Shown: one piece after another, positions 53,608 through 61,888 of the stretch | How positions within the stretch are numbered: position 1 is the first letter of the stretch | How the letters are laid out: each line of letters starts with the position of its first letter | Source: a bacterium | GTDB lineage: Bacteria; Fidelibacterota; Marinisomatia; Marinisomatales; TCS55 | DNA length: 64,000 nucleotides | NCBI GenBank assembly: GCA_004321715.1 | Contig: SGYN01000001.1 | Location: 1 to 64,000, forward strand | Direction: 5' to 3' | The notes under the pieces: model-generated | What the model was told of the DNA's origin: nothing | Database searches by the model: none | Seen by the model: only the letters and a program-made list of their open reading frames with translations | Made by a program: the position numbers and the translations under genes

Positions 53608-55209
53608 TTAAAAATTAAAACTAGTTTCTATTGAAGTAATATTAATCATTTCATCTGGTCCATTAAGTTTTCCATCTCCATTTAAATCGCGATATGTTCT
53701 TTGAAAAGAATAATTTAAAATCATTCCCGATCCAAGATCTACTCCGATACGATAGCCCATAACTGTGCTTTCCGATGGTTCAAATTTAAAAGGGTTTGGA
53801 ACATTTTGCTGTTGATAAAACCAGCGGGCATATTTTATTTTGCTTATTGATTTTGTCAAACTAATAGAAGCAACAAAATTTTTATTCTTATTTTCTTCAA
53901 AATCATCAATTGAATTATTCCATATCTGTCCAGTAAGATCTTGGTATGCTGCACCTGTTCGAAGTAAACTTCCTAATCTAAGATTTAGACTAGCATAAAA
54001 TCCATTTTGTCTTCCATATCGCCCTAAACGACTTTCCTTTGTAATAACTTGCATACCAATATTATCAACTGATGAAAAAGATGCTCTTTCGATTTGATAC
54101 GATCTATTCCAATAACCAAACTCGAATCGTCCTTTGGGTATCATTCTATACTCAATATTCAGTTTAGCAGGACCAAAAACAGTTGATACTCCAATTGGTA
54201 CTAAACCTGTACCTAGTGATAATTCTTCCTGTCTTAATTTAGTTTTACCAAACATCTTTGCAGCTTGAGAATAAATGTTAACAGATAATTTTTCTTGGGT
54301 TATTAAGGGATATCCAAAGTCTACCGCAATTGCACCAACAGGGTCTGAATTTTTATTAATATTCAAAGGATCTGAATCCAATACAATATTTCCATCTGGT
54401 AACGAATCATAGTACGTTTCATTACTGAAGTCTACACCAACTGTATTTCCCAAATTATCCCACCAATCATGAATGTCATCTAAATTGCCTGCATCTAAGT
54501 ACCCATCGCCATCTCTGTCTAATTCATTTGGATCTAAATCTGCTAGACCATCATTGTCAGAGTCCATTGAGAAAGCAGAATTACTCGGAAATGCATCAAC
54601 AATATCTGGCACACCATCACTATCTCCATCACGTAATCCTAAATACTGATTCCGATCAATCACAATTGAAACCGCAAAAGGTAGGGAACTAATAAATGGA
54701 GATTTTACTCTTAATCCAGTTAGTCCAATATTTTCTTTAAAATCATTAACAAATCCCTCTATTGTTCCTAGTTTTGTTTTTATCTTATAATCTAATCCAA
54801 CTTTTCGAACCTGAGGATATTGGATAGCATTTGAGTATGAATTAACTAAAATTCCGTATCCAAGATCAACACGATCTAAAGAACCAATTTTAAAATATAA
54901 AGGATCGCTTTTGAAGCCATAACGTACATAGTATATTTTATCAATGATCGTATTTTTTATATTTTCTGTACTTGAGAAGTCCCATTCATCTTGATGAACA
55001 TTACCATCCTGATCAAAATAAAATACTAGATCTAATGCAACAGCAAATTTACCAAAAGGTACAATGGGTCTAAGGGCTATTTGATTCCAAACTTTACCAT
55101 CAATTGTTACAGCACCAAATGCACCTTGCATTGAGCGCCCATCTTGAGCAAAGCATAAGCATAGTGTCAATATGCTAGTTAAAACGGTAGTGGAACGGAA
55201 AATCATCAT
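53608..55209 (-). CDS. Outer membrane beta-barrel-like protein with calcium-binding insert
   Basis: A 533-residue protein. The signal peptide is residues 1-21 (ends CFAQ). The body is rich in short amphipathic strands, and the last residue is Phe, as in outer membrane barrels. Residues about 193-240 are Asp-rich, thrombospondin type 3-like (DGDSDGVPD; DSDNDGLADLDPNELDRDGD), predicted to bind several calcium ions. A second EF-hand-like loop, DLNGDGKLNGPDE, lies near the C-terminus. Its role (porin, adhesin or complex subunit) is unknown. The ATG follows an AAAGGA ribosome binding site, and a TAATTTTG element (55221-55228 region) resembles the Bacteroidetes -7 box. Confidence 0.78.
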   Translation of the reverse strand: MMIFRSTTVLTSILTLCLCFAQDGRSMQGAFGAVTIDGKVWNQIALRPIVPFGKFAVALDLVFYFDQDGNVHQDEWDFSSTENIKNTIIDKIYYVRYGFKSDPLYFKIGSLDRVDLGYGILVNSYSNAIQYPQVRKVGLDYKIKTKLGTIEGFVNDFKENIGLTGLRVKSPFISSLPFAVSIVIDRNQYLGLRDGDSDGVPDIVDAFPSNSAFSMDSDNDGLADLDPNELDRDGDGYLDAGNLDDIHDWWDNLGNTVGVDFSNETYYDSLPDGNIVLDSDPLNINKNSDPVGAIAVDFGYPLITQEKLSVNIYSQAAKMFGKTKLRQEELSLGTGLVPIGVSTVFGPAKLNIEYRMIPKGRFEFGYWNRSYQIERASFSSVDNIGMQVITKESRLGRYGRQNGFYASLNLRLGSLLRTGAAYQDLTGQIWNNSIDDFEENKNKNFVASISLTKSISKIKYARWFYQQQNVPNPFKFEPSESTVMGYRIGVDLGSGMILNYSFQRTYRDLNGDGKLNGPDEMINITSIETSFNF

Positions 55210-55277: not shown

Positions 55278-55583
55278 ATGATTAATATTAAAAAATATGA
55301 ATTGGATGATATCCTAACTTTATCTCGTAGTGAGATTAAGGACTATATTCTTTCTCTACAGGATTATTTACATCAAAAATTGGATTCAGGTATAACAATA
55401 GATGATATATTAGATGAGGAAGATCCTTTTGAAGTGATTGAACCTTTATTGCAGCGTGAAGAGTTTCCTATTTTTGTTCTAACTATCATCAACAAAATTC
55501 AGAGTGATACTGTTATGAACACCTTACTTGATTCTATTGAAAAAGGAATTAAAAAAACAAATAGTGAAAAATTATCTAATTAA
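55278..55583 (+). CDS. Small acidic protein of unknown function (101 aa)
   Basis: A 101-residue, strongly acidic, predicted helical cytoplasmic protein with no signal peptide (LTLSRSEIKDYILSLQDYLHQKL; IDDILDEEDPFEVIEPLLQRE). No family is recognised. It is divergent from the outer membrane protein gene, sharing a 68-base spacer, and its last 12 bases overlap the 3' end of the convergent gene at 55572-58025. It is one of few plus-strand genes in the window. Confidence 0.7.
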   Translation: MINIKKYELDDILTLSRSEIKDYILSLQDYLHQKLDSGITIDDILDEEDPFEVIEPLLQREEFPIFVLTIINKIQSDTVMNTLLDSIEKGIKKTNSEKLSN

Positions 55584-58025
55584 AGATAGCTTTTGACTTA
55601 GGATAACTCCATCAACATTTAGGATAATAAAGTATATCCCTGAACTCATATTAACTCCCTTATCATTGGAGCCATCCCAACTAATAGTGTGACTTCCAGA
55701 TCCTAATGTTTTATTAAATAGATTTCTTATTTTTCGTCCATTAATATCAAGAACTTGCATATGCACATTAGATAATTTAGAAAGACTAAATGAAATTTTT
55801 GTATTTGGGTTAAATGGGTTAGGATAGCTTGGGTATAGCGTTATCTGGTTTGGGATATTATTTATGAATGAATCTGTACTTACATTTGGTGGCATATCTT
55901 GGTTTAAAACCAAATTAATATCATCCACATACCAGCCCTGACTTTCATCTTCAGAATCCGAAACCATTAATAACCTTAAGTATAACTCATCTTCATTCAT
56001 AAAGGAGCTCAAGTTGATATATCTTTCAAATAATTCTTGATTATTCCATGCGCTAACAGTCAATATATTTGTCCAATTAGGATTGTTTCCTCTTTTCACT
56101 TGAACATATCCATAATCACCCGGTCTTAATAATTCTCCTGATTTAAATTTTATGTAAGCTTTACTAAAATAGGTCAAATTAATTGGTTCTACTAAGTAAC
56201 ATGCGTTATATGCATTCGGAGCATACAAACCATTTGGGCTATCATTTATCGCCCATTTTATTGTATGATTAACATATTGCCTACCCCATTCTCCTAAATC
56301 CCAGAGATTCATTGAAGACTCATCTTCAAAATTCCCCAAAGGATAATGGTCAGAAATATAAAAATATTTTTCATCTGGCTCAGATTCATTCGATTGCGAA
56401 GACGCATCAGTAGCAACTACCCAATAACGAATTTCTGTACCTGGACTAATACTATCATAGGATATTGAACCTATATATGTGGTGCCAAATTCTTGGTTAG
56501 AAGTTTCATCACAAATAATTGATTGTATCTGATTATCTCCTGCTTGCCAAAAAAGTTCCACACTATATATACCAATATTATCTGATGCCATCGAAATAAT
56601 TTCATACGATCCAGATGGGTAAAACTGATCTTCTACTTGAGTGATCAATTCAACTTCAGGAGCAATATTATCTACTCCTATATTAAATTTATAAGATGAA
56701 AATGGAGCATCATAAGGTTTGGTAACTCGTTCACCATTTTGAGTATTATAGGCTACATAGTAGTGCATTATTCCATTTTCTGCAGCAGGAACAATACTGC
56801 CAACAAAATTTGTGCCAGATGAATTTAATAAGGTTGAATCAATTGATGCTCCATCTAGCCACCAAAACAGCTTTAAGCTTGAATAATCAATACTATAATT
56901 CGGACTTTCATCAATAGTTATGTTAAAACTTATGGGATCAATATTATTCTCTGTATCATTTAATTCTTCAAAATTTATTTCGCCCATAAAAGGATAACTC
57001 ATAATAAAAAATCCATTTCCAGAATAGTCAGTGGAATAAATCAAACCATTTTCTGTTAAAGGATATGTCCCCCAATTTCCACTATAAAGACCACTTTGAC
57101 CCGGATACCAATCATAGTAACCTACTTCAATGGGATTATACGGATCAGAAATATTCAGAATTCTAGTTCCATATACATAATATGAAATATATAATAAATC
57201 GCCTTTTATCAATACATTATGTACAGATTTATTTTCTGCATCAGTTTCATCTGGATACCATAATGAAACTAAATTAATATTGTTAAAGTCTTGTATATCA
57301 AATATATAAACATAGCCCCCAGCTTCTTCATCAGCAGTTACAACATATTTTGAATCATCAGTCACCCAAACTGCATGACAACCATAATTGCTATAATTAT
57401 GCTCAACAAGATTTATAGGATTTGATTTGATTGACACATCAATAATATATAATGTACCATCATAGATTCCACATCCGTATAATGTGTCGTTCTTAACAAA
57501 CCCATCATGAAAATATGCATTTTCCCAAGATCCAACCTCAATGGGATCAATTGGATTATCAAGGTTAAGAATTCTACATCCTCCTTCATCATTATTAGAG
57601 CCAAAAATATAGGCGTAGCCATCGGAAATAAACAAATTATGAGCAGTGCTAAATGTATCAGTATACTCTCCAACTTTGAATGGGTTAAATGGATCCTCAA
57701 GACTAATGATATCCATTCCGCCTCCAGTTTCATTGGTAACATAACAATAATAGCTATGCGTTTTAATATCTCTCCAGGTAGATGTCGCTCCTGGAATAAA
57801 GCCTACTTCGATAGGGTTATGAGGATTGGATGACACATCATATATATAAGTTCCAGAACGATGACCTACCAATGCGAACTCATGCCCATTTGGATCTGTA
57901 TACCCCCACACATCATTACATGTCCCTAGATCGACATTTACGATTGGCCTAATATTTTCAATATCCACTTGTTGTGCTGATACGGAAACAAATATGATTA
58001 AATTCAGTAAATATTTATTGTACAT
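55572..58025 (-). CDS. Choice-of-anchor-B / LVIVD-repeat secreted protein with type IX sorting tail
   Basis: An 817-residue exported protein. Residues 1-18 are a signal peptide. Residues about 25-340 form a beta-propeller of LVIVD-like repeats (CNDVWGYTDPNGHEFALVG; SGTYIYDVSSNPHNPIEVG; GMDIISLEDPFNPFKVGEY), the choice-of-anchor-B pattern. Ig-like domains follow, then a region near 570-700 that looks carbohydrate- or ligand-binding. The C-terminal 85 residues are a sorting domain (YPSYPNPFNPNTKISF ... SSGIYFIIL). It is probably attached to the cell surface or released. The catalytic function, if any, is unknown. ATG start; divergent from the gene at 58075. Confidence 0.86.
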   Translation of the reverse strand: MYNKYLLNLIIFVSVSAQQVDIENIRPIVNVDLGTCNDVWGYTDPNGHEFALVGHRSGTYIYDVSSNPHNPIEVGFIPGATSTWRDIKTHSYYCYVTNETGGGMDIISLEDPFNPFKVGEYTDTFSTAHNLFISDGYAYIFGSNNDEGGCRILNLDNPIDPIEVGSWENAYFHDGFVKNDTLYGCGIYDGTLYIIDVSIKSNPINLVEHNYSNYGCHAVWVTDDSKYVVTADEEAGGYVYIFDIQDFNNINLVSLWYPDETDAENKSVHNVLIKGDLLYISYYVYGTRILNISDPYNPIEVGYYDWYPGQSGLYSGNWGTYPLTENGLIYSTDYSGNGFFIMSYPFMGEINFEELNDTENNIDPISFNITIDESPNYSIDYSSLKLFWWLDGASIDSTLLNSSGTNFVGSIVPAAENGIMHYYVAYNTQNGERVTKPYDAPFSSYKFNIGVDNIAPEVELITQVEDQFYPSGSYEIISMASDNIGIYSVELFWQAGDNQIQSIICDETSNQEFGTTYIGSISYDSISPGTEIRYWVVATDASSQSNESEPDEKYFYISDHYPLGNFEDESSMNLWDLGEWGRQYVNHTIKWAINDSPNGLYAPNAYNACYLVEPINLTYFSKAYIKFKSGELLRPGDYGYVQVKRGNNPNWTNILTVSAWNNQELFERYINLSSFMNEDELYLRLLMVSDSEDESQGWYVDDINLVLNQDMPPNVSTDSFINNIPNQITLYPSYPNPFNPNTKISFSLSKLSNVHMQVLDINGRKIRNLFNKTLGSGSHTISWDGSNDKGVNMSSGIYFIILNVDGVILSQKLSLIR

Positions 58026-58074: not shown

Positions 58075-58695
58075 ATGAATCCATTTAAATATTACTTTTT
58101 TTCAGCATTATTTATATCACAAACTTTTGCTGTAAATATCAAGATTACTGATATAAAAATAAATAGTAAGAAAAACGGAATTTTCTTAACAATTCGTTCT
58201 AATCAACCTCTTCCTAGGGAAACGGCAACCGGATGGTATTCTGAGAATGGTTGGTTTTATACCACTATAATGGATGCTCAAATTGATACCAATCTTGTAG
58301 AATCAATAAATACTCCTACTATAGTAAAAAAAGTTTCCTTACATAACACTAGCGAATCAGTTCAAATATCCTTAAAAGTTCCTCCTATAGAAATACATGA
58401 TTTTTTTGAATCAGATAACCCTAATGAACTTATGATTGCCCTACGATTTCCCCTTTCATCAATAGATCCTATTTTAGCAGAGGCACAATCAGCATATAAA
58501 TCAAATATAGATATGCAAACTGCATTGAATTATAATCAAATTCGCAATTCATTACTTTTAGTGGGCACATCATTATCCGTGGCAGGCATTATTAGTAGGG
58601 ATGGGCAGGATATAAAAAGATGGGAGTTATTTACTGGATTGGGATTACTAATTGCTACTTATCTGTACGACCGCTACATTCAATTAAATAAGTAA
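58075..58695 (+). CDS. Exported membrane-anchored protein with AMIN-like domain
   Basis: A 206-residue protein. Signal peptide residues 1-19 (ISQTFA). Residues about 20-125 look like an AMIN-type beta domain (VNIKITDIKINSKKNGIFLTIRSNQPLP), a fold used to bind peptidoglycan in amidases and secretins; this match is by eye and uncertain. Residues about 155-200 contain two hydrophobic segments (SLLLVGTSLSVAGII; LFTGLGLLIATYLY). It starts the plus-strand operon ending in a metalloprotease. The TAA stop overlaps the next ATG as TAATG. Confidence 0.65.
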   Translation: MNPFKYYFFSALFISQTFAVNIKITDIKINSKKNGIFLTIRSNQPLPRETATGWYSENGWFYTTIMDAQIDTNLVESINTPTIVKKVSLHNTSESVQISLKVPPIEIHDFFESDNPNELMIALRFPLSSIDPILAEAQSAYKSNIDMQTALNYNQIRNSLLLVGTSLSVAGIISRDGQDIKRWELFTGLGLLIATYLYDRYIQLNK

Positions 58696-58823
58696 TGGGT
58701 GAACTTTTACCTTACTATGCACTTTTTTATGTTCTTGGTCTTTTGTTAATGGCTTTATTTATAAGATTATTTTGGGGTAAGAAAAAACAGAATGAAATTA
58801 ATAGACTTTATAAGAATAAATAA
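58695..58823 (+). CDS. Small single-pass membrane protein (42 aa)
   Basis: A 42-residue reading frame: a hydrophobic helix (YYALFYVLGLLLMALFIRLFWG) and a short charged tail (KKKQNEINRLYKNK). Its ATG shares a base with the stop of the preceding gene (TAATG), and its 3' end overlaps the next gene by 32 bases. The layout is as tight as at the confirmed genes nearby, and without it a 97-base gap would be left. No family is recognised. Confidence 0.6.
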   Translation: MGELLPYYALFYVLGLLLMALFIRLFWGKKKQNEINRLYKNK

Positions 58824-59175
58824 TATAACTATTTGTTTCATTATTGCAGGAATGATTGTAGTTCAATCTTGCTCTTTAAAGCCTAAGATAGATTCATCAA
58901 ATCCTCAAAATGCAATAAATACTATTGAATTACTTCGTAATGATCATCGTAATAAAGATATATCTAATGATGATTATTATTTATTTTTAACTTATGCAAT
59001 ATTTTCCCCACAATCTTTACCTCTAAATTATCAAGGGACTGTTGGACCTAAAGATGGAACACCAGTAATCATAGAAGTCAAACGTGCGTTTCACACATTA
59101 ACACCAGATAGTCAAAAAATTATTCGTCAGTGGATTCGTCCACTTCCTAAAAAACCACAAAAGAGGAAACCATGA
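58792..59175 (+). CDS. Small lipoprotein of unknown function (127 aa)
   Basis: A predicted lipoprotein. The signal peptide is long (residues 1-26) and ends at the lipobox VQSC (C27). The mature part of about 100 residues is polar and ends in a basic tail (PLPKKPQKRKP). No domain is recognised. Its stop overlaps the metalloprotease start as ATGA, so the two proteins are made together; a chaperone or maturation partner is conceivable but unproven. Confidence 0.72.
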   Translation: MKLIDFIRINNITICFIIAGMIVVQSCSLKPKIDSSNPQNAINTIELLRNDHRNKDISNDDYYLFLTYAIFSPQSLPLNYQGTVGPKDGTPVIIEVKRAFHTLTPDSQKIIRQWIRPLPKKPQKRKP

Positions 59176-60938
59176 AAAAATCTGTATTTTTACTAATTAT
59201 TCTTTTGGAAATATCTTTTGCAAAACTTCCGAGCAATATTGATCAATCTGTTGAAATAATAATACAATCATTTTCTGGAAATAATCATGAAAGATGTATA
59301 TCACCTCATCTTAGAAATGTTGCGTTATATGGAAATCAATTAAATGAAGATCAGCAGTCAAGCTTAGAACAAATAGGATTTCAATTTGACCGTCCTGTTA
59401 TTAGCCGTTCATCCCAAAATCGAGCAGAAGCTGCGGGTTTGGATCAATCTCTTGATAATGGATATTTCCGTTTTCATTATGCTACCACAGGAACCCATGC
59501 TGTTGCAAGTTCAGATACAAATAATAATAGCATTCCAGATTATATCGATAATATAGTTGATATTTTTGCACACGTTGCTTCAACTCAATTAGACAGTTTT
59601 TCATATTCAGAACCACCTTCTGATAGCTGGTATCCTACTAATGAGGATAACGGTGGGTCTAATCATTATGACATTTATATTCGCAGTCTAGAATCCAATG
59701 TTTATGGATATGTTGCTCCTGAAAATTTTGCTCAAGCTGGAAATTTTGGAGACAATGAAAATAGTTCAGTAACTGAATTAAATGCATTAACTAGTTATAT
59801 GGCTCTTCGGAATAACTATAATGGCTTCCCTGGTACGCAAGAAGAGAGTATTAAAGTTACTGCAGCGCATGAATTTCATCATGCAATTCAATCAGGCTAT
59901 GATGGCTTTGAAGCCCAATGGCTTATGGAAGCAACTGCTGTAGCTATGGAAGAACAAGTTTATGACGAAATTAATGATTGTTATCAATATTTACCATCTT
60001 GGTTTAATGAGCCTCATAAAGCTTTAGATCATCAAAGTGATCATTGGTATGGATCATTTATTTATGCCCAATATATTTTTGAACATTTAGGCGGATATCT
60101 AACTTTAAGAAAGATATGGCAAAAAAGTATTTTAAACGATAGTTATTATGGAGATTATAGTCATAGAGCAATTTCTTTAGCATTATCTAATGAAGGATCT
60201 TCTTTCTCGGATGTGTTAAATAAAATGGTAGTTGCAAATCGTATCATGTCTTCAAATAATAATGCTGGAGTATTTGCATATGAAGAGGCTGAAGCATACC
60301 CTGTTAATGGCCCTGCAACATTTACAGAAATTACATATATTGCTGGTAACCCACAGACAATTACCAGTACAAATCTAAATCGCTTTGCAAGCCAGTATAC
60401 TCGTTTAATTAGTAGTGACCCAGTCGTTGCATCTTTAACAAATACTTCTGGACCAAATTCAGATCTAAATATGCACGCTATTATTTCTTATGGAGATAAT
60501 TCATGGACAGTGTATTCTGGTAATCAAATAAATATTGATCCGACGGATGCTAGTTCTGTTTATCTGGCAATAGTAAGTCAGGATACAAGCGGAAATAATT
60601 GGGATTATCAAATAGATATTTCAGATGGCGAATTATCATTAGAAGGTGAGTATGTACCTACTGCTGTTTCTGTTTCTCAAAACTATCCAAACCCTTTTAA
60701 CCCTTCTACTTCTTTCAATGTAAATATTCCCCATCGGCAACGCTTAAGTATCGATATAATATCTATTAATGGAAAACATATTAAAAAAATAACAAATAAT
60801 ATACATGAACAAGGTATTATAACATTCCATTGGGATGGGAAAACTAAATATGGGGAACTAGCTTCTTCAGGACAGTATTTTATAGTGGTTAAAGGAATTG
60901 GTTTTCAGCGCTGGATAAACGCAACATTATTAAAATAA
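59172..60938 (+). CDS. Secreted zinc metalloprotease (MXAN_6640-like) with type IX sorting tail
   Basis: A 588-residue exported protein. Signal peptide residues 1-17. An N-terminal region follows (possible propeptide, about 18-95). The catalytic zinc site is H233-E-F-H-H237 with a likely third ligand E253 in WLMEATAVAMEE, a gluzincin-like arrangement. The upstream NHYDIYIRSLESNVYGYVAPE is typical of the MXAN_6640 putative metalloprotease family. The last ~85 residues are a sorting domain (SQNYPNPFNPSTSFNVNIP ... WINATLLK). It probably acts at the surface or is released to digest protein. ATG start. Confidence 0.85.
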   Translation: MKKSVFLLIILLEISFAKLPSNIDQSVEIIIQSFSGNNHERCISPHLRNVALYGNQLNEDQQSSLEQIGFQFDRPVISRSSQNRAEAAGLDQSLDNGYFRFHYATTGTHAVASSDTNNNSIPDYIDNIVDIFAHVASTQLDSFSYSEPPSDSWYPTNEDNGGSNHYDIYIRSLESNVYGYVAPENFAQAGNFGDNENSSVTELNALTSYMALRNNYNGFPGTQEESIKVTAAHEFHHAIQSGYDGFEAQWLMEATAVAMEEQVYDEINDCYQYLPSWFNEPHKALDHQSDHWYGSFIYAQYIFEHLGGYLTLRKIWQKSILNDSYYGDYSHRAISLALSNEGSSFSDVLNKMVVANRIMSSNNNAGVFAYEEAEAYPVNGPATFTEITYIAGNPQTITSTNLNRFASQYTRLISSDPVVASLTNTSGPNSDLNMHAIISYGDNSWTVYSGNQINIDPTDASSVYLAIVSQDTSGNNWDYQIDISDGELSLEGEYVPTAVSVSQNYPNPFNPSTSFNVNIPHRQRLSIDIISINGKHIKKITNNIHEQGIITFHWDGKTKYGELASSGQYFIVVKGIGFQRWINATLLK

Positions 60939-60939
60939 T

Positions 60940-61872
60940 TTAGTTAATAAAAAGTTGACTAAGATCCTCTAGATATTCTTCATAAGCATTAACAGATTTT
61001 TCAAAACGAATTTCATATTTTTCTTTGAACTCAGGACTTTTTTTTAAGTATACACGTCCGCCTTTTTCCTTTTCGGCAACTTTATCAATATTCAAAAATA
61101 GTTTATCTAATTTATCGAGATTTTTATTGATGATTTCAACCTTATTCAATTGATTACTTAATTTTTTAACATGATTAGCATCATCACTAATAGCGTCAAC
61201 TAGTGATGATGTTAATCTATCAATTGATGGCTGAAAATTTTTTCTTTTATCAGATAAATTTTCCGTTATGAAAAACCATTCATTTTTTTGCTTTTGAATG
61301 AAAACCAAATCCATATCTCTTTTTGTTAAAGCCTTCCTAATTTTAATAATTGATTCTTGATAACCAGTTTTTCTTAGATCAATGGCATTATCTAAAATAA
61401 TAAATTGTTCTAGATATGAATTTTCTTTTCCAGATATTTTTGTATCTATATTGATTTTTCTACTCTTCTGCACTCTCATGATAAGTTTTTTTTCCTTTTT
61501 TGCATTAGAAAGGATATTTTCATGAGCTGCCACCATTACAGATATATTTGCATCTAAAAATTCGTATAGTTGGAAATCATTTTGCCTTGAAGAGTTCATT
61601 AAGGGGCGTAATGCATTTTTTGTTGACTTTATTTCTTTTGATTTTTCTTGAACCCATGCGCGATGATTTCTTACTTGAGATTCCATTGCATAAATATCTA
61701 TGAATTCTTTAGAGCCTGATGGTAAAAGTTTTCCTATTTTTTTTGCTACACTAGACGAGCCCGTTTTTGAAGAAATAATATTCATAAAATTTATTAGAGG
61801 ATTGGTTCCAGAACAGCTTATATGAAAAAACAAAAGTCCCATTAATAGGGACTTTCTTAATTTGCGATTCAT
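60940..61872 (-). CDS. Predicted lipoprotein, coiled-coil rich, function unknown
   Basis: A 310-residue protein from the ATG at 61872 (an in-frame TTG five codons upstream would lack a benefit and precede a normal signal). The signal NRKLRKSLLMGLLFFHISC ends in a lipobox with C20. The rest is Lys/Glu-rich and helical, with coiled-coil-like stretches (VKKLSNQLNKVEIINKNLDKLDKLFLN). No domain is recognised. A hairpin plus T-run lies inside the signal-peptide codons. The gene converges on the metalloprotease gene with a 1-base gap between stops. Confidence 0.75.
   Translation of the reverse strand: MNRKLRKSLLMGLLFFHISCSGTNPLINFMNIISSKTGSSSVAKKIGKLLPSGSKEFIDIYAMESQVRNHRAWVQEKSKEIKSTKNALRPLMNSSRQNDFQLYEFLDANISVMVAAHENILSNAKKEKKLIMRVQKSRKINIDTKISGKENSYLEQFIILDNAIDLRKTGYQESIIKIRKALTKRDMDLVFIQKQKNEWFFITENLSDKRKNFQPSIDRLTSSLVDAISDDANHVKKLSNQLNKVEIINKNLDKLDKLFLNIDKVAEKEKGGRVYLKKSPEFKEKYEIRFEKSVNAYEEYLEDLSQLFIN
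61833..61855 (-). terminator. Terminator-like hairpin within lipoprotein signal-peptide codons
   Basis: On the minus strand AAAGTCCC, a 7-base loop (TATTAAT) and GGGACTTT form an 8-bp perfect stem, followed at once by TGTTTTTT. This is the layout of an intrinsic terminator. It lies 17 bases into the coding region of the 60940-61872 gene, after the glutaredoxin gene. It may end part of the upstream transcription, acting as an attenuator. The stem is only half GC, so strength is moderate. Confidence 0.5.
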
Positions 61873-61888
61873 TTTATTTATAATCAAC

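Follow-up and report, generated by a model that had tools for sequence, protein, structure and literature searches.

Small lipoproteins encoded immediately in front of proteases secreted by the type IX secretion system (T9SS) are a known kind of partner protein. In Tannerella, all of the KLIKK proteases are reported to be preceded by open reading frames (ORFs) of 360–550 bp whose products are predicted lipoproteins (PMC4404884), and a later account of these potempins calls them inhibitors specific for the protease encoded behind them, citing data that were then unpublished (PMC7296668). The purpose of this text is to describe a four-gene locus, A to D, on the plus strand of a 64,000-nucleotide stretch of DNA (the window; contig SGYN01000001.1, positions 1 to 64,000) from a bacterium of the order Marinisomatales, in which a small lipoprotein gene, C, likewise stands directly before the gene for a T9SS-type metalloprotease, D. 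What appears to be new is that this lipoprotein is related to the pro-segment of the protease family itself, and we consider it probable (roughly 60%) that C is a membrane-anchored pro-segment that acts in trans to keep D latent.

Compared by their description only, the potempins of Tannerella forsythia resemble C in being encoded, one per protease, by a small gene directly before that of a T9SS protease, and also in size (384 bp for C). They differ in that C is homologous to its protease family's own pro-segment, nothing similar being said of potempins in the passages considered, and in that two further membrane-protein genes precede C. Separate genes for homologues of protease propeptides are also on record: SUB1-ProM of Plasmodium is a stand-alone propeptide homologue, encoded at a syntenic locus beside protease genes and reported to be a potent inhibitor (PMC6993865), and proteins of the I29 type, such as CTLA-2 alpha and crammer, follow the same principle. 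They share with C the separate gene, yet their targets are eukaryotic serine or cysteine proteases, whereas C is a bacterial lipoprotein that would presumably inhibit a zinc metalloprotease.

Regarding the protease side, promirolysin, a pappalysin, resembles the family of D in placing a short pro-segment, marked by a conserved Cys-Gly motif, at the N-terminus ahead of its zinc protease domain; the Cys of that motif blocks the zinc, a part taken by Asp in astacins and karilysin (PMC6949598). Promirolysin belongs to another clan, the metzincins, and the zinc blocking shown there is only proposed for D and C. D itself passes the cut-off of a named family, NF045524, from which it is set apart by its tie to genes A and B in the window's order, and its modelled catalytic fold resembles that of lugdulysin, to which D adds a T9SS tail and for which sequence searches gave no match. 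The first-pass annotation of the window, made from the DNA letters and their translations, knew of no described system with this composition. We likewise found no description of such a module in the open-licence papers searched; the statement is too broad in that the protease family has a name and the lipoprotein-before-protease arrangement has a described parallel in the potempins.

The lipoprotein C and the protease D

The comparisons below draw on 61 relatives and on 245 genomes of the phylum Candidatus Neomarinimicrobiota; where labels are needed, G denotes a genome (G000 being the source genome), L a locus, g a genus and f a family within the phylum set. The genome harbouring the locus comprises 1.63 Mb in 46 contigs and is 67% complete.

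Gene C (58792-59175, plus strand; 127 aa) encodes a lipoprotein that is, judged by profile comparison, a free-standing homologue of the pro-segment of MXAN_6640-family proteases. It carries a signal-like stretch and a lipobox-position Cys27 (58870-58872) that is Cys in 12/12 relatives, and the small lipoprotein of the first-pass annotation is thereby borne out. The hint of a pro-segment came from searches with C among the 61 relatives, in which the weaker matches fell in the N-termini of two large proteases (L021 and L023); another match, in G037, was spurious, with six stops. Residues 43-114 of C (58918-59133) align to protease pro-segments when an alignment of 11 protease N-termini that includes no lipoprotein (A4) is compared with the alignment of the lipoproteins (A2), with an hhalign probability of 98.8% and E 5e-17 over 72 columns.

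The A4 profile finds all 12 lipoproteins, at E values from 4e-17 to 2e-10, and among 2400 shuffled lipoproteins searched as a control one fell under E 1 (0.27). Over the 245 genomes A4 returns 55 rows, namely the 12 lipoproteins, four frames running off contig ends (checked in the DNA) and 39 rows in frames of at least 373 aa; because all rows other than the lipoproteins are of these two kinds, the free-standing form of the pro-segment is seen in these genomes only as C. The A2 profile, in turn, gives the 12 lipoproteins at E <1e-46, followed at 1.6e-6 by the N-terminus of a protease in G213. Of 12 loci from the named genome collection, 11 hold the C lipoprotein and one (L176) a protease N-terminus. 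On account of the homology, we rejected the reading in which C is a helper that has no relation to the protease. The predicted model of C (mean pLDDT 86.5; block means of 90-98 over the core residues 41-120) is a compact helical domain with helices at 44-53, 59-71, 89-102 and 105-112, and a QWI motif is conserved.

Within the phylum, C is found in 12/245 genomes, which belong to genera g1, g2 and g3 (the same 12 among the 61 relatives), and in every one of them it is a separate gene, unfused to a protease, that stands between B and D. The search for the four-gene order that the first-pass annotation had proposed thus places A-B-C-D in 12/245 genomes, with A-B-D common in the window's order. 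In a tree of D (51 rows), the C-bearing proteases form one clade (support 97/98), all 12 genomes of which have C; in a tree of pro-segments (30 rows), the lipoproteins also form one clade (support 100/99), separate from the pro-segments of the ~1000-aa paralogues discussed below. Because both the proteases and the lipoproteins form single clades, one gain of C would be the simplest reading of its history. C stands nearest, in the pro-segment tree, to L176 and to pro-segments of other families in the phylum. A descent of C by copying from the pro-segment of the ~1000-aa paralogue was set aside on the separate clade, in a tree that is short (77 columns) and carries a long-branch warning. The gene is under constraint, with dN/dS of 0.18-0.38 in five pairs; in G013 its frame stops early, ahead of the Pro/Lys-rich tail.

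Gene D (59172-60938, plus strand; 588 aa) encodes a T9SS-type secreted zinc metalloprotease of the MXAN_6640 family with a predicted M30 (lugdulysin)-like fold, and by its profile match it is of a type already known, the ordinary part of the finding. It scores 217.4 bits against NCBIfam NF045524 (MXAN_6640 family putative metalloprotease; cut-off 140), covering positions 2-289 of the 290 in the profile; a protease of this family is present in 191/245 genomes at E 1e-15, elsewhere in the phylum also without A. The claim of an HExxH protease with a sorting tail was correct: the zinc motif lies at residues 233-237 (59868-59882), with H233, E234 and H237 invariant in 24 aligned relatives, and the T9SS type A sorting tail, residues 505-575 (60684-60896), reaches 24.7 bits against TIGR04183 (cut-off 23), while its score of 14.9 against Pfam Por_Secre_tail is under the cut-off of 27. 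The T9SS translocon protein SprA was matched in 60/61 relatives, including the source genome (E 1.3e-185 in G000), and from its signal peptide and tail D is probably exported and then carried outside by the T9SS.

The predicted model of D (mean pLDDT 85) includes the protease's own shortened pro-segment (59238-59372), with helices at 23-35, 44-56 and 59-67. The Foldseek list for the whole of D was filled by matches to the tail domain; a second comparison, with VIA-align, brought out lugdulysin, an M30 zinc metallopeptidase (PDB 7bb8; Z 20.5, 3.6 Å, 290 residues, 14% identity), over model residues 21-438, together with 7bb9 (Z 19.5), and the next row, at Z 12.0, concerned the tail only. The model thus suggests an M30-like fold for the catalytic domain; sequence searches with D gave no M30 chain among their matches. 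D has a dN/dS of 0.06-0.14 in five pairs and 60 matches within its own genome, mostly to its tail alone.

The source genome also holds two further MXAN_6640-type proteases, L002 (G000:C34:34030-35667) and L142 (G000:C45), of which the ~1025-aa one has retained the whole pro-segment, including a Pro-Cys-Gly motif. A ~1000-aa paralogue of the NF045524 family occurs in g1 genomes and in some g3 and g5 genomes. In five of the 12 C-bearing genomes (G006, G007, G013, G020 and G031; completeness 77-96%), D is the sole NF045524 match, which makes it the natural partner of C.

Proposed working of the module and its rivals

Full-length pro-segments of the family carry a nearly invariant Lys-Cys-Gly-Thr (KCGTP). 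In the column of its Cys, D has Cys42 (59295-59297), and C has Asp88 (59053-59055; KDGTP), an Asp in 12/12; C lacks the canonical KCG Cys, so that it may function as a pro-segment of non-canonical type. To read this column across the family, four of 92 D sequences in which the anchoring motif is missing were dropped, leaving 88, i.e., 60 linked to A and 28 unlinked; gaps were not counted, and one sequence of the set, that of G108, is cut at a chance motif. The A-linked proteases have His in 37, Cys in 14, Asp in three, another residue in four and a gap in two, or Cys, His or Asp in 54/58 ungapped sequences, and the unlinked ones have Cys in 16, another residue in one and a gap in 11 (Cys in 16/17 ungapped). 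The column thus tends to retain a residue of a metal-binding type, though not always the same one, as expected of a zinc-blocking residue, and zinc blocking by the Cys or Asp of the pro-segment is suggested by analogy with the described latent proteases.

We propose that D would be synthesized in a form in which a signal peptide and a short pro-segment precede an M30-like catalytic domain and a T9SS tail follows it, and that C would be a membrane-anchored copy of the fuller pro-segment present on other family members. Acting in trans, C would bind D on its catalytic face and hold it latent, be it in the periplasm or on the cell surface, perhaps also assisting its folding; Asp88 would sit beside the zinc of the active site and take the part played by the pro-segment Cys in the fused form, while B might tether or present D and A would serve as a general envelope factor. 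The binding of C to D, the inhibition and the zinc-blocking residue are all conjectured from sequence. A more specific version, which we offer only tentatively, makes C a detached, membrane-anchored "aspartate switch", gained once, whose Asp88 blocks the zinc of D in trans, with D retaining a second lock in cis (Cys or His).

Several observations weigh against latency imposed by C. D keeps a pro-segment of its own, with Cys42, and most A-B-D loci lack C, and for these two reasons C is dispensable for folding or latency in general. His, which replaces Cys in 37/58 A-linked proteases, is to our knowledge not a described switch residue; moreover, another residue stands in the column in 4/58 ungapped A-linked proteases, and there is a gap in 11/28 unlinked ones. 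Outside the clade, most weak matches of the C profile fall in the signal regions of lipoproteins or in further proteins that are not proteases (G239, G109, G010, G220), and among the weak out-of-clade rows that were read only those of G213 and G226 are protease N-termini. Finally, the model of C has no match among solved folds (none at E 0.001; best Z 4.9), an absence that proves nothing in itself.

The pro-segments of many proteases guide folding, and C, a lipoprotein co-encoded with D, might be a foldase or export escort of that kind, aiding the folding of D or its hand-over to the T9SS without inhibiting it in service. This is an unlikely account, since D has its own confidently modelled pro-segment and sister genera without C have a D whose pro-segment is likewise short. 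It is less likely still that C is directed at something else, either a different cellular protease or foreign members of the family encountered at the surface, and that its place beside D is merely inherited. Many of the 12 larger loci compared share the stretch of genes that runs from alaS to a glutaredoxin gene and, because so much of this neighbourhood is conserved, synteny alone is weak evidence for a link between C and D; in addition, the ~1000-aa paralogues of g1, g3 and g5 would offer such a target. Against this stand the five C-bearing genomes that lack a second NF045524 match, the failure of the C lipoproteins to group with the paralogue pro-segments, and the overlaps of C with B (32 bases) and with D (4 bases).

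Least probable of all is a set of envelope genes that merely share a transcript, in which C would be the functionless, decaying remnant of a protease gene. The persistence of A alone in family f15, the loss of the pro-segment Cys in C and the early end of the C frame in G013 would fit this account, yet the lipobox-position Cys is kept in 12/12, the dN/dS values are those of a constrained gene, the Asp is invariant, the QWI motif is conserved and the model is confident. We conclude that C is very probably a dedicated partner of D, of a kind that the first-pass annotation did not name, and the trans-acting pro-segment remains our preferred account of it.

The A-B-D block and its surroundings

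Gene A (58075-58695, plus strand; 206 aa) encodes an AMIN-like exported protein with one or more C-terminal hydrophobic stretches, and gene B (58695-58823, plus strand; 42 aa) a single-span membrane protein whose motif YYAxFYVxGLxLMxLFxRFYLxKKR is conserved order-wide. The four plus-strand genes are joined as first described, with the junctions read from the DNA: the stop codon of A and the start codon of B have one base in common within TAATG (58693-58697), the end of B runs 32 bases into C (58792-58823), and an ATGA (59172-59175) is shared between C and D. The genes flanking the block lie on the opposite strand, and A to D probably share one transcript. The arrangement is not due to chance, because the order and the overlaps recur in relatives and dN/dS, estimated for A, C and D in five pairs, lies at 0.06-0.38.

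A-B-D is an order-wide block. In a first set of 56 loci with A, D is linked behind it in 52/56, with B between them in 49/52. The phylum-wide counts rest on 89 hand-chosen A rows, from which ~500-aa amidase-type rows and 21 rows of family f15 were excluded, on 86 D rows, from which paralogues, weaker rows and out-of-order proteases other than that of G173 were excluded, and on all 84 B rows. Among the matches listed, D lies within 1.2 kb downstream of A for 82/89 A rows, B stands between A and D in 72/82 such loci, and 76/84 B rows have A directly upstream. The remaining eight B rows comprise two with A on another contig (G040, G052), two on a contig without an A row (G143, G123) and four weak matches. 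In the loci fetched from outside the window's order, A was seen with D only at G173, the other 30 having no A beside the protease; one fetched locus, L178, has its contig end within the protease gene and contributes no upstream sequence.

The 42-residue membrane protein was rightly recognized: B has one strong hydrophobic stretch, with a mean Kyte-Doolittle value of 2.42 over 17 residues from residue 10, and is usually present in a single copy per genome. As a helper of the protease it is upheld in part, in that it lies directly behind A in 76/84 rows and is absent together with D in f15, although B is missing from the f13 genomes, in which A and D are both present. Its presence tracks that of the protease better than the presence of A does, and it may have a tethering or presenting role. 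In L126 (G046, minus strand), B and D form one uninterrupted ORF, as if B were an N-terminal anchor of the protease, and the contig ends inside D; in family f5, B is on a contig other than that of A (G040:C40:36089-36187 and G052:C19:5811-5909).

The name AMIN-like suits A only in part. Pfam AMIN is matched by 3/32 members of the A family, with a best E of 0.0066, which is weak; the name is fair by way of a separate ~500-aa protein, an amidase (Amidase_3) in the source genome, whose N-terminal domain is also matched by the A profile in most genomes, among the matches listed. The N-terminal domain of A thus resembles, at the sequence level, that of a cell-wall amidase. Family f15, which is streamlined, keeps the short A gene in 21/24 genomes, again among the matches listed, and profile searches found a B or D match in 0/24; in the f15 loci L235 and L236 (G050, G060), A adjoins alaS, the same place as in other genomes. 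The retention of A in f15 rules it out as a dedicated helper of the protease, and A, with a dN/dS of 0.18-0.24 in five pairs, seems to be an envelope factor of wider function, presumably on the same transcript.

The first-pass annotation had taken A, B and C together for dedicated envelope helpers of the protease, a view that holds for C through its homology to the pro-segment, in part for B, and not for A. The pattern it named as speaking against such a module, relatives that carry the protease alone with the other three genes elsewhere, is found in half: many proteases lack C or A and A occurs without a protease, yet A-B-D is order-wide and C, where present, is always between B and D.

Three neighbouring genes, all on the minus strand, complete the picture. 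The divergent neighbour (55572-58025) encodes a protein that matches the choice-of-anchor B family (TIGR04312) at 178 bits and bears a T9SS tail. Beyond it, a gene adjoining alaS (53608-55209) encodes a 533-aa exported protein, and on the other side of the block a lipoprotein-like gene (60940-61887) encodes 315 aa; both are conserved neighbours with no Pfam match at E 0.01.

Meaning for the family and the phylum

Proteases that are cargo of the T9SS need to be kept silent until they are outside the cell. If our proposal is true, a lipoprotein that guards such a protease can arise when a pro-segment of the protease family becomes a separate protein, and an unannotated lipoprotein of an uncultured phylum would gain a likely function. 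Should the more tentative aspartate switch also prove right, C would be an inhibitor lipoprotein whose origin in the guarded protease family is readable from its sequence, inside an order-specific A-B-C-D surface protease complex. Apart from C, the A-B-D block is a further unannotated envelope module, and the Cys/His/Asp column of the MXAN_6640 pro-segments is a candidate for the zinc-blocking residue in an M30-like family. The locus offers a clean test case for these ideas, with what appears to be a single gain, 12 genomes that have C and many close relatives that do not.

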